Shown here in pieces: positions 21,484 through 24,686 of a stretch of 25,791 nucleotides of DNA. A model generated the notes under the pieces. It ran no database searches, was not told the DNA's origin, and saw only the letters and a list, made by a program, of their open reading frames with translations. The stretch is from a virus. A program made the translations under genes and the position numbers. The DNA lies in the IMG/VR virus record IMGVR_UViG_3300044844_000359, positions 1 to 25,791 of that record; one strand, 5' to 3'. Each line of letters begins with the position of its first letter. The stretch's first letter is position 1.

Positions 21484-21767
21484 CAGTAAATCCTCGTCAC
21501 GTCTTCAATCCATGCATCAACTTGCTTGATTGAGTTGAGTACATAAACCTTAGCACCTAACGCTCTACGCTTTTCATGATCTCTTTCTTGAGCTGGTGTT
21601 GCGTGTCTTCCTGGTGCTTTGAGTTCTACAAATGTTACGTTACCTTCGGGTAATGTGACCACGCGGTCAGGTACACTGCGTCTGCCCGGCGACGTGAACT
21701 TTTCACATAGCCCACCAATCTCTTTGACTTTATCGCATAAGTATTTCTCAACTTGTTTTTCTAACAT
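21483..21767 (-). CDS. VRR-NUC domain nuclease
   Basis: 94 residues, the usual length of stand-alone phage VRR-NUC proteins. The fold is a PD-(D/E)xK nuclease: the P33-D34 start of motif (SVPDRVVTLPEG), E48-x-K50 (FVELKAPG) and Q60 in TPAQERD. A typical structure-specific nuclease for branched replication or recombination intermediates; its target is not shown. It overlaps the polymerase gene by 20 bp and the helicase by one base, suggesting coupled production of the three. The leader is gaggatataggtt. Confidence 0.93.
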   Translation of the reverse strand: MLEKQVEKYLCDKVKEIGGLCEKFTSPGRRSVPDRVVTLPEGNVTFVELKAPGRHATPAQERDHEKRRALGAKVYVLNSIKQVDAWIEDVTRIY

Positions 21768-23550
21768 AACCTATATCCTCTAATAACTCTTTTGCTTTTG
21801 TAATGTAGTAATTTAAGTCCACGTCTACAGGGAATGTATCAGGAAGTACCATGCATGGGCGACACGCTTGTGACAGTGGAACTTTATTACCGTTCTTCTT
21901 GTACTCTAATTGTTTATCTTGCAAAGCAGGGGTATTGCTGTGATAGAAGCGAATGGCTTTACCGAGATACTCACCATCAAAGATAGCCCCACCGGTTACT
22001 CTACGACAGCTAATGAACTTTCCAATGTCTTTACACTCGCTGATAGTTTGCTCAACGGGTGTACCCTTGATGACTCGTTGTGTCACTGCGTCATAGACTA
22101 TGCGACCATCGGGGTTCTTTCCAATCGACTCTCCGGCAAAGATCCCTTTACCTTTGTATGAGCCATTTGTTTTGATTGCAAGGTATGAGTTTACATCTCG
22201 TGAGGCTATTGCTCGGTACTCAGTCTTTTCTAATTGATATGATGTCTGAAGCTCCCAGTCCCATAATAGTTCATTCACTAACTCTAATTTACTTTTATGA
22301 TAATAAATGACCACACCATCTGTATTAGCACTAACTACCTTAATGCCTTTGTCTTCAAGTGTTTCAATTAACATGAGGAGAGATAGTTGTCCGGTAATCG
22401 TAGTTTGCAATAAAAGCTCAGGTGAGTATAAGAAACTGTACTTACTGCCGAACTTACCGTACCCAGAGTTGGTCGTTATCTTAAGTGTGTCGGCAGTTAC
22501 CTTGTCACCGCTACGTTTAGCCTCAGCACGTCTAGCTACAATTGATTTGTATAATTCTAAAAATTTAACCCCTAAGTTTTCTGGATAAAGACCTTGTTGC
22601 ATAATGATGTTTGGGTAAAAACCCGTTACATCAGCGTCTTCTAAATGATAGTCTTCTTCACATTTAATGTACTGCGCTTTCTCACAGGAGTGAATACCAC
22701 CAATACCCATCTGATACTCTGTTGTTCCTACAGTGATACGCTCACCTAACCACTTAGGGCATTCAAGTGTTCCGCTATCAGCAATGGTAAACTTCTCAGT
22801 GAGTAATCGATTGAACACATCCTTTAGGTGTTGTGATTTGAACTTGATGATTTTAGGATCACGATAGTTGAAGCTAAACTTAGGCGGATAGCTTTTCGCT
22901 TTGAACTTTGCAGCAGGTATCTTATAGAGCGATTGCATCTCAGACTTGATGAGTGCTTCAGCAATCTGCGCATCAGACTTAGAATTAAGATTGATGCCGT
23001 ATTGTTTGCTCATTGATTTGCGCAGTTCAATCTGAGGTAATAGGGTAGTGTATAGAAGCTGCGTTAACTCTAAGTCATTTCGACAGTACACTTTGAGTTG
23101 CTCACGCTGAGCCGGTGAGATAATCTCATCAGGCTCTATAGGTAGATCTTGCAGGGTTTTACAATGTAGTCTACTACCGTACACTTTAAGACTTCCTTGA
23201 CCGATAGCGATTTCAATTAAGTCTATGTGATTGTAGTCAGCAACGGTTAGGTCGCGTTGACGCGTGATGTGCCAAGCTGGAAAGCTAGACATAATAAGGT
23301 CAGTGCTGAACTTATGTAGAGCTTTTGTGTTGTAGCCAGACAGCGCAGCGGTAATCATGGGAAGGTCATACTTGTATCCGTTGAAGCTTACTGTTTCGCG
23401 CTTCATTGTATCGCGTATGAGTTTGATGTCGTCTTCAGATAGTGACGCGTTATCGTAGATTTCTACTTGACGTACACGATGTGTCTCTGTGTTAAGCGCA
23501 GCGAAGAGCCAGTAGTTTTGGTAGCATTCTGTGTCAATGATGATAGCCAT
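21748..23550 (-). CDS. Family B DNA polymerase with 3'-5' exonuclease
   Basis: 600 residues; replicates phage DNA with proofreading. Exonuclease motifs: I D6-x-E8 (DTECYQ), II N57...D62 (FNGYKYD), III Y155...D159 (YCRND). Polymerase motifs: A D307 in DVTGFYP, B KITTNSGYG (357-365, matching KxxxNSxYG), C NTDG (409-412). A late SYLAIKTNGSYKGKGIF holds the KxY-like region. Motif C usually reads DTDS; here the first Asp is Asn, while the second (D411) remains. The length is closer to short or protein-primed family B enzymes than to 800-900-residue enzymes, but no terminal-protein gene is visible. The leader aaggacacctatt is nearly repeated before the next gene upstream. Confidence 0.9.
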   Translation of the reverse strand: MAIIIDTECYQNYWLFAALNTETHRVRQVEIYDNASLSEDDIKLIRDTMKRETVSFNGYKYDLPMITAALSGYNTKALHKFSTDLIMSSFPAWHITRQRDLTVADYNHIDLIEIAIGQGSLKVYGSRLHCKTLQDLPIEPDEIISPAQREQLKVYCRNDLELTQLLYTTLLPQIELRKSMSKQYGINLNSKSDAQIAEALIKSEMQSLYKIPAAKFKAKSYPPKFSFNYRDPKIIKFKSQHLKDVFNRLLTEKFTIADSGTLECPKWLGERITVGTTEYQMGIGGIHSCEKAQYIKCEEDYHLEDADVTGFYPNIIMQQGLYPENLGVKFLELYKSIVARRAEAKRSGDKVTADTLKITTNSGYGKFGSKYSFLYSPELLLQTTITGQLSLLMLIETLEDKGIKVVSANTDGVVIYYHKSKLELVNELLWDWELQTSYQLEKTEYRAIASRDVNSYLAIKTNGSYKGKGIFAGESIGKNPDGRIVYDAVTQRVIKGTPVEQTISECKDIGKFISCRRVTGGAIFDGEYLGKAIRFYHSNTPALQDKQLEYKKNGNKVPLSQACRPCMVLPDTFPVDVDLNYYITKAKELLEDIGYVRKTS

Positions 23551-23568: not shown

Positions 23569-23847
23569 TTAATCCCAACTATCAAGTTGAGTTTTATTTT
23601 CTGAAATAAATATTTTTAATTTTTCAATGGTGGTGTTAGCAAAACGAATTGCCATCTCATTAGACAATGGGTGAAAACTAACTATATGGTTATAGTTCAC
23701 ATTTAACATTAAAAATTTTTTTCTTTTGATCTTAAATAAAAAGAAGTTTTGATAATACTCAGCGTACATTTTAGTAACACTACCAGTCCAACCATATTCT
23801 TCTATTTTAAAATAATAGCCTTTGTACTTAAATTTCATGATAGCCAT
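23569..23847 (-). CDS. 92-residue basic protein inserted at the polymerase start
   Basis: Starts at the ATG at 23847 (MAIMKFKYKG) after aaggacactcctt; a start three codons later is possible. The chain is rich in Lys, Phe and Tyr (MKFKYKGYYFKIEEYGWTG, FFLFKIKRKKFLML) and more AT-rich than its neighbours, with strands early and a C-terminal helix (IEKLKIFISENKTQ). I do not recognise it. It is bracketed by two copies of the polymerase initiation region, so it probably arrived by insertion with duplication. Confidence 0.75.
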   Translation of the reverse strand: MAIMKFKYKGYYFKIEEYGWTGSVTKMYAEYYQNFFLFKIKRKKFLMLNVNYNHIVSFHPLSNEMAIRFANTTIEKLKIFISENKTQLDSWD

Positions 23848-23865
23848 AAGGAGTGTCCTTATAAT
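23838..23865. repeat. 28-bp direct repeat, copy 2 (start of the 92-residue gene)
   Basis: The partner of 23541-23568, 297 bp away. It carries the start codons and ribosome-binding site of the 92-residue gene, so both genes begin with MAI. Confidence 0.85.
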
Positions 23866-23876
23866 AGATAGATGTT

Positions 23877-23914
23877 AAAAAACCTCTAAGCTCGTTTAAG
23901 AAAGTTTAGAGGTT
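23877..23914 (-). terminator. Intrinsic terminator or attenuator ahead of the polymerase operon
   Basis: aacctctaa (23881-23889) pairs with ttagaggtt (23906-23914), a 9-bp stem with a 16-nt loop. On the - strand it runs into six Ts (A run at 23877-23882). It would stop transcripts coming from the SSB gene before they reach the polymerase, so partial readthrough or another start is needed. Confidence 0.65.
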
Positions 23915-23924
23915 GGATTGATAG

Positions 23925-23953
23925 AACTAAGCCTATTGATAAATTGCTTAGTT
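23925..23953. repeat. 8-bp inverted repeat
   Basis: aactaagc (23925-23932) and gcttagtt (23946-23953) form a hairpin with a 13-nt loop, the second of four structures in this noncoding stretch. Confidence 0.6.
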
Positions 23954-23972
23954 AATAAGAGATTTGTTACTT

Positions 23973-24062
23973 AGAACTATCAATGAAACACCCTGCGGTT
24001 GAGTGTATCTGTAGCAAGAACATTCCTAGAATTGAGGTACAGGATGTTTCATTGATAGCTCT
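23973..24062. repeat. 90-bp palindromic element with 23-bp arms
   Basis: The arms at 23973-23995 and 24040-24062 are inverted copies with 21 of 23 positions paired, including a perfect run covering ctatcaatgaaaca. The 44-bp centre has no obvious gene. No target-site duplication is seen. Confidence 0.75.
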
Positions 24063-24082
24063 GCACCAAAATGGTGCAGAGC
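24058..24082. repeat. Strong hairpin 11 nt after the SSB stop
   Basis: gctctgcacca (24058-24068) and tggtgcagagc (24072-24082) form a perfect 11-bp stem with a 3-nt loop. It is stable, but no T run follows on either strand, so it is more likely an RNA-processing or 3'-end-protecting structure than an intrinsic terminator. It shares five bases with one arm of the longer palindrome. Confidence 0.7.
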
Positions 24083-24092
24083 ATAGTACTAC

Positions 24093-24608
24093 TTAGAACT
24101 CGTCATCAAGCTCATCAAAGTCGTCATAGGTGACGCCTTTGTTATCGCCAAATGCGTCACCGTCTTTAGCGAACTGAACGCCAAATAAGTTTCCTAAAAT
24201 TTGTTTACCACCTAATGGATGGTCACTGTACCAGAACTCAATGATTGCGTTAACGTAACAACCTGCGTAAATTCTACCATCTTCTTCGGTTAAAGGTGTT
24301 TTGTCTCTATCAATAACTAAAAGGCGTTTAGTGCTACCACCTTTTAAAGCCATTTGACCTTCATAACCATCATAGTCTTTGTCATCACCGTCAGTGAAAC
24401 AGGTGACCTTCAAACCTTTAGGTGTTTTACCTTGGAACTTCTCAGCTAAAAATGCATCAATCGCATCTTGAGTTTGCTTGTGCTGAGGTGAGCCTTTAGG
24501 CATTAAGAATGTCGCTTCATACTTGGTTTCTACACCATTAAACACAGCTTTTCTAAAGATAGCTGGGAAGCTTAAACGTACGTTTTGTAATTTTAATTTA
24601 GCACTCAT
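24093..24608 (-). CDS. Enc34/DUF2815-type single-stranded DNA-binding protein
   Basis: 171 residues, normal for the family. It should coat single-stranded DNA during replication. The start KLQNVRLSFPAIFRKAVFNG, then ETKYEATFLMPKGSPQ, the later GRIYAGCYVNAIIEFWYSDH and the very acidic end YDDFDELDDEF match the DUF2815 family, whose Enc34 member has a gp2.5-like OB fold. The acidic tail is typical of phage and bacterial SSBs that bind partner replication proteins. The gene is first after the promoter at 24658-24686, with aaaaggatacaatc as leader. Confidence 0.92.
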   Translation of the reverse strand: MSAKLKLQNVRLSFPAIFRKAVFNGVETKYEATFLMPKGSPQHKQTQDAIDAFLAEKFQGKTPKGLKVTCFTDGDDKDYDGYEGQMALKGGSTKRLLVIDRDKTPLTEEDGRIYAGCYVNAIIEFWYSDHPLGGKQILGNLFGVQFAKDGDAFGDNKGVTYDDFDELDDEF

Positions 24609-24657: not shown

Positions 24658-24686
24658 ATTGTACGCTGACACTTTTGAGGTGTCAA
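24658..24686 (-). promoter_or_regulatory. sigma70-type promoter for the replication operon
   Basis: On the - strand TTGACA (24686-24681) and TACAAT (24663-24658) are exactly 17 bp apart. Transcription would begin near 24651, giving a leader of about 40 nt to the SSB start at 24608. The -35 lies only 3 bp past the stop of the methyltransferase gene. Confidence 0.82.
24667..24685. promoter_or_regulatory. 19-bp dyad inside the replication promoter, candidate operator
   Basis: tgacactt, ttg, aggtgtca is an 8-3-8 inverted repeat with one imperfect pair. It spans most of the -35 hexamer and the spacer. A bound regulator would hide the -35. Confidence 0.5.

Follow-up and report, generated by a model that had tools for sequence, protein, structure and literature searches.

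A modular noncoding-RNA array probably reduced to a single cassette between the ssb and DNA polymerase genes of a virus record

The ssb-pol gap

The window, by which we mean the whole 25,791-bp virus record analyzed here, contains a 245-nt gap within a replication block on the minus strand that comprises a C5-cytosine methylase, ssb, the gap, a 92-aa ORF, a DNA polymerase (pol), a VRR nuclease, and an SNF2 helicase. Read along that strand, the ssb stop codon is followed by an 11-bp hairpin, a cassette that we refer to as unit A, a tail, and a terminator, after which come the 92-aa ORF and pol. Based on its sequence, a candidate sigma-70-like promoter is the probable source of a transcript that would include the RNA array discussed below, and ssb lies directly upstream of that array. 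The features are as follows (contigs used for comparison carry L numbers):

24658..24686, minus strand: sigma-70-like promoter, TTGACA-17-TACAAT, 5' of ssb (predicted; consensus scan, 11/12 matches)
24093..24608, minus strand: ssb, Gp2.5-like / Enc34-type ssDNA-binding protein (phrog_112, E=2e-40; Pfam Enc34_ssDNA-bd, E=2e-28)
24058..24082, minus strand: 11-bp perfect hairpin GCTCTGCACCATTTTGGTGCAGAGC, before unit A (repeat search and folding)
23977..24058, minus strand: unit A, 82-nt cassette closed by CTATCAATGAAACATCCTG / CAGGGTGTTTCATTGATAG (five homologues, 98.5% of pair cells kept)
23917..23984, minus strand: tail unit ATTGATAGTTCTAAG ... CTTAGTTCTATCAAT (conserved in L005, L006, and L370)
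23925..23953, minus strand: 8-bp hairpin (AACTAAGC/GCTTAGTT) within the tail (repeat search, folding, and pairing probabilities)
23877..23914, minus strand: intrinsic terminator, stem AACCTCTAA/TTAGAGGTT plus U tract, ending the ssb-array stretch before pol (same-slot terminators in L005, L006, and most relatives)
23569..23847, minus strand: 92-aa ORF between the terminator and pol (28-nt, 89% repeat of the pol leader and start)
21748..23550, minus strand: pol, the DNA polymerase gene that follows the slot (phrog_1252, E=5e-178)

The sequence-only reading had described this gap as a nest of inverted repeats, and a repeat search recovered every repeat it listed: the 23-nt arms at 23973-23995/24040-24062 (21/23 paired, i.e., 91%), the arms of the 8-bp hairpin (23925-23932/23946-23953) and of the terminator stem (23881-23892/23903-23914), the three copies of the octamer (23917-23924, 23977-23984, and 24051-24058), and the 11-mer TACTTAGAACT at 23968 and 24090. 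These repeats are far above chance. When the 245 nt were dinucleotide-shuffled 1000 times, no inverted repeat scored above 12, compared to 17 for the best one in the real sequence, and no perfect short-loop hairpin scored above 9, compared to 11. The folding z score was -7.2 for the minus-strand RNA and -7.4 for the plus strand; given this near equality, energy alone cannot pick the strand, and it is the wobble pairs and the orientation of the genes that do so. The proposed terminator is likewise real, with a hairpin and a U tract that exists (at 23877-23882) on the minus strand only, that is, on the strand of ssb and pol.

The closure of unit A as an 82-nt unit is a 19-bp helix, and the closing helix ranges from 19 to 23 bp. 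Unit A is present, nearly unchanged, in five viral contigs (the window, L005, L006, L370, and L351). Across these five homologues, 98.5% of its pair cells are standard versus 32-62% when the pairing is slid, and among them one pair has changed on both sides (from A-U to G-C), several others vary to G·U, and one U·G pair never varies; all of the wobbles are of the U.G type. The inner helix is weak. Covariation within unit A is thin, amounting to one compensatory pair in five sequences with an indecisive shuffle control, because the sequences are near-identical, and it is not what supports the RNA reading given below. A scan for the interior of unit A returned mostly chance matches in coding sequence, the real ones being only L308 (the L006 contig) and L310 (the L005 contig).

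The tail can also be closed as a unit (TGATAG..CTAAG / CTTAG..CTATCA), and the 8-bp hairpin within it is an alternative pairing of the same CTTAG; in L370, the outer helix of the tail is continuous over 13 bp. Because the 5' arm of the tail is the 3' arm of unit A, the two closures are mutually exclusive. In the window, a partition function computed over the full 245 nt clearly favors the closure of unit A, in which the middle octamer pairs with its upstream copy (P of about 0.90), and pairing of the middle octamer with the terminator-proximal copy has a P of about 0.002. The 11-bp hairpin (24058-24082) occupies the place of the short pre-unit separator hairpins of relatives and recurs in L005 and L006 with an altered loop.

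Searched against Rfam 15 (including GOLLD, ROOL, HEARO, and DicF), the gap gave best matches with E values of at least 0.1, far under the gathering score, and unit A and the separators described below match no Rfam 15 family. ARAGORN and Rfam detect no tRNA in the window.

Downstream of the terminator, the start of the 92-aa ORF nearly copies the pol leader and first codons (TTATAAGGACAC..TATGGCTATCAT; 28 nt, 89%). This ORF is missing from L005 and L006 and had no match in PHROG and Pfam searches; it appears to be a recent insertion between the terminator and pol with a duplicated start.

Arrays and separator hairpins in relatives

In the relatives L005 (ssb and pol each 88% identical) and L006 (85% and 87%, respectively), the gap measures 428 nt and 758 nt, and both contigs retain unit A, the tail, and the terminator. 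The L005 gap holds two units, namely unit A, a separator, and one other unit; the L006 gap holds four or more, that is, unit A and at least three further units. In total, 24 distinct contigs (31 table entries before duplicate removal) carry an array between an upstream ssb and a downstream pol on one strand, at 47-88% protein identity. The units differ inside but resemble one another at their ends, with a CTATCA (or CTATGA) start, a TGATAG end, and 13-24 paired bases; the long closing helix of unit A is thus the closure common to all units of the array. Each separator runs from TGATAGTT to AACTATCA, ends that are complementary to the unit ends, so that the separators can also be closed. The CTATGA start opens many units in L040, L352, L366, L370, L380, and L413, where the fifth pair of the closing helix thereby becomes a G.G mismatch, and it recurs across unit families.

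Clustering yielded sixteen unit families of 60-190 nt. Some units are tRNA-like, with a T-arm, a D-arm, and an acceptor stem that continues into the closing helix; they score above the gathering threshold of the Rfam tRNA model, and the anticodons assigned by ARAGORN are nonsense. The extension of the acceptor stem into the closing helix would preclude normal charging of these units. Two families, of 161 and 184 nt (L032, 1867-2007 and 2131-2310), have complex multihelix folds, are common to several phages, and look like undescribed RNA families. Arrays also occur outside the ssb-pol slot, in early regions and in tRNA clusters. The arrays of L370 and L351 carry unit A with neither ssb nor pol as a neighbor, the L370 array following directly upon an early promoter-like region, and of the contigs followed up from a 16-mer scan, L058 was the one with an array unit.

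Most other relatives have a short ssb-pol gap, as do the named phages Vibrio LP.1 and Pseudoalteromonas PHS21, and in the metagenomic relatives it usually holds just an intrinsic terminator. The presence of a terminator in most relatives indicates that a terminator by itself is the ordinary state of this slot and that the array has been added upstream of it, after ssb. Set against these arrays, the window is a reduced member: it has one unit and the tail, multiunit alternation with separators is not seen there, and it lacks both the GGAAAGAC and the GGCTGA/TCAGC separator hairpins that L006 and L005 carry. Given the single unit and tail, the array in the window could be decaying. These comparisons show units being gained, lost, and shuffled between phages, and the gap of the window is best read as a one-cassette remnant of an array common to many related phages in the same slot.

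Where one strand has a G·U pair, its complement has an A·C mismatch; an excess of G·U therefore points to selection on the transcribed strand as RNA. Among 37 distinct oriented closing stems, we counted 627 Watson-Crick pairs alongside 38 G·U and 11 A·C (p=1.4e-4), and the orientation of the array agreed with the direction of transcription in every ssb-pol case examined.

The separators were analyzed in the same way. All IMG/VR contigs were searched with the pattern TGAYNGC-NN-GGAAAGAC-NN-GCA, in which pairing of the NN positions was not demanded; among the matches listed, these positions pair at 121/122 viral sites, compared to about 10% in the control, with 109 hairpins fully Watson-Crick, 12 with one U·G pair, none with A.C, and 13 stem types in all. 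Pairing was likewise found in bacterial and archaeal genomes sampled at one per species, across many phyla. In phages, the GGAAAGAC hairpin lies in noncoding stretches and between or just before tRNA genes (e.g., Pokken and Microcystis phage Mwe-JY26). The form TGACAGC-NN-GGAAAGAC-NN-GCA has a GAAAGA hexaloop and constitutes an RNA motif with covariation that is widespread in phages and prophages across many phyla; it is not in Rfam and is often situated immediately 5' of tRNAs.

The same hairpin is contained in long structured leaders of lambdoid phages (L301, phage mEp390, 2000-2780; L135, 7240-8000); such leaders lie close to the repressor or immediately follow an early-promoter-like site, and they may possibly provide RNA-based antitermination in place of N. 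HK022 has no GGAAAGAC-type hairpin at 25000-31500, which leaves the separators with no sequence link to the put antiterminator RNA. Two other identities were considered for this hairpin and set aside: it does not fit the hammerhead core (CUGAUGA, GAAA) and matches no Rfam ribozyme, and the resemblance of GGAAAGAC to 23S A2058 is apparently an 8-mer coincidence.

A second type of separator is a pair of hairpins, GCGTA-GGCTGA-TACGC ... GCCGG-AGATCAGCA-CCGGC, that was found in 34 stem/loop combinations with both stems paired; the search required pairing, so the variety is informative and the pairing is not. The GGCTGA and TCAGC loops, whose letters are fixed by the search pattern, are suggestive of kissing.

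What the gap may encode

A cis-acting termination/antitermination switch, in which the alternative pairing of the octamers opens or closes the terminator and thereby sets the amount of polymerase, has several features of the gap in its favor. There is an intrinsic terminator between ssb and pol, three octamers and a shared arm permit two exclusive closures (of unit A or of the tail), and shared-arm alternation runs throughout all arrays. We nevertheless consider this reading, which the sequence-only reading had raised as its termination switch, to be unlikely given that the alternative octamer pairing has so low a probability in the full 245 nt, that neither closure overlaps the terminator stem, and that unit A is also found in arrays with neither ssb nor pol beside them. 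Its occurrence at other genomic sites in two contigs argues for an independent RNA cassette and not a pol switch. Moreover, a terminator between ssb and pol is normal in most relatives, which have it without any array, and so the terminator is no evidence for a switch.

A role at the level of DNA, as a replication origin, a cruciform site, or the terminal repeats of small mobile cassettes, would fit inverted repeats that fold equally well on both strands, as well as the shared CTATCA/TGATAG ends and the cassette-like gain and loss among relatives at direct repeats. An origin had been among the earlier proposals. The asymmetry of the mismatches speaks against all of these, since G.U falls on one strand (38 versus 11 in the closing stems and, among the matches listed, at least 12 versus 0 in the separator hairpin), a bias that indicates pairing at the RNA level. 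The direction of the arrays follows that of transcription in every ssb-pol case examined, arrays are also located in early regions and tRNA clusters, outside the replication slot, and there is no GC-skew turn at the gap (weak evidence only); a DNA-level element is therefore quite unlikely. It is also quite improbable that the gap is an ordinary ssb 3' untranslated region (UTR), with hairpins that guard an abundant ssb message, a terminator that keeps pol low, and no independent RNA function. Its position directly past the ssb stop codon, the strong hairpin that begins 10 nt on, and the conserved terminator are all what a 3' UTR would have, but such a region fails to account for the conservation of unit A in its unpaired parts, for the presence of unit A in contigs without a neighboring ssb, and for arrays of diverse units, including tRNA-like ones.

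We consider it likely that the gap encodes RNA and represents, in shortened form, a modular array of noncoding RNAs that follows ssb and ends at the pre-pol terminator, with products that would be transcribed with ssb, processed, and active in trans. The structured RNA that had been one of the earlier options is supported, and it extends to a larger, modular arrangement in which this RNA is one cassette. Insofar as comparison among sequences can establish them, we regard five parts of this proposal as established: that the RNA is structured, which strand it is on, that the cassettes are modular, that the slot between ssb and pol is conserved, and that a terminator ends it. In the proposed mechanism, the array would be made within the ssb transcript, which would stop at the terminator, and the terminator would also hold pol below ssb. 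The long closing helices would serve as processing stems that are cut by RNase III-type enzymes, by analogy to DicF and rRNA precursors, thereby freeing stable small RNAs. The released RNAs would then act in trans on the host during infection. As a conjecture about function, host takeover or counter-defense seems the likeliest role, and the different sets of units in different phages fit tools for host range or counter-defense.

Several known systems resemble parts of this model. In rRNA precursors, long stems are cut by RNase III-type enzymes. DicF, from the dicBF operon of the Escherichia coli Qin prophage, is a small RNA of phage origin that is encoded in an untranslated part of a phage operon and is reportedly cut free by RNase III and RNase E; in contrast to the arrays, it stands alone, its sequence showed no relation to unit A, and the window has no Rfam match. 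Phage tRNA arrays are polycistronic noncoding operons of structured RNAs, among which the T4 array includes RNA C and RNA D as extra stable RNAs, and the GGAAAGAC hairpin lies between tRNAs in several phages; most of the units described here, however, are something other than tRNAs, and in place of free acceptor ends they carry long closing helices. GOLLD and ROOL are large, ornate, cage-forming RNAs carried by phages near tRNAs (PMC12286853). They share with the arrays a large noncoding RNA content in phages, often adjoining tRNAs, and differ in that they are single large RNAs rather than repeated, interchangeable units of 60-190 nt; in addition, the arrays have no Rfam match to them.

Phage P1 and a possible wider class

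The second type of separator also occurs in a Pseudomonas-type prophage (L066), in one E. coli and one Salmonella phage-plasmid, and in the gap between dmt and ban of phage P1. This P1 gap (68677-70232; L461) is about 1.5 kb of noncoding sequence on the transcribed strand and contains closed units and separators; an example is the unit at 69726-69825, closed by CACTACAACGTTGAGAACACTGG / CCAGTGTTCTCAACATTGTGGTG and followed by a GGCTGA-type separator. For the same interval, the P1 record lists only tRNA-Asn, tRNA-Thr, a “dicF-like region,” and two small opposite-strand ORFs. Its separator pair, GCACA-GGCTGA-TGTGC ... GTCGG-AGTTCAGCA-CCGAC, also punctuates the arrays of the relatives of the window phage. 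The P1 gap differs from those arrays in its arms (CACAAC.../...GTTGTG versus AACTATCA/TGATAGTT), in the genuine tRNAs embedded in it, and in its position at dmt-ban and not at ssb-pol. Judged by this grammar, the dmt-ban gap looks like a structured-RNA array, and P1 thus appears to carry such an array elsewhere in its genome; a search of the open-access literature turned up no account that treats it as an array of RNAs.

The P1 genes plp and upl lie antisense to the dmt-ban array, and their annotations may be spurious. The ends of P1-type arrays (L459, 2894-3017; L460, 3098-3218; L461, 2281-2400) give a partial match to Rfam STnc100, with E values of about 1e-5 to 1e-4; this match is below gathering, and the array-end element may be a distant relative of the STnc100 small RNA. 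In the Salmonella jumbo phage SA002 (L458), an unannotated cluster of degenerate tRNA-like sequences (2019-2620) lies beside a AATAGGAAACTTGGG..TTGAAAGTACA motif that is also found in separators of freshwater arrays.

Taken more broadly, we tentatively suggest, as a possibility that we hold with less than even confidence, that these loci belong to an unrecognized class of element: arrays of interchangeable structured RNAs, punctuated by complementary ends and a small set of conserved separator hairpins, exchanged as cassettes, and processed to stable RNAs that would act on the host, perhaps by decoying or inhibiting its RNA-targeting defenses, and ranging from phages of freshwater bacteria to P1, phage-plasmids, and jumbo phages. 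As an organization of phage noncoding RNA, the array is apparently widespread and undescribed, with no description of such arrays found in the open-access literature; the known kind of system to which it belongs is the phage noncoding-RNA/tRNA operon. Given that P1, P7, and RCS47 share the same unit and separator grammar in their dmt-ban gaps, the question can be addressed in E. coli K-12. Noncoding gaps in phage genomes are usually ignored. If the arrays are operons of processed RNAs, then phages would possess a modular RNA toolbox akin to their small accessory genes, and the punctuation marks described here would make that toolbox searchable in any genome.
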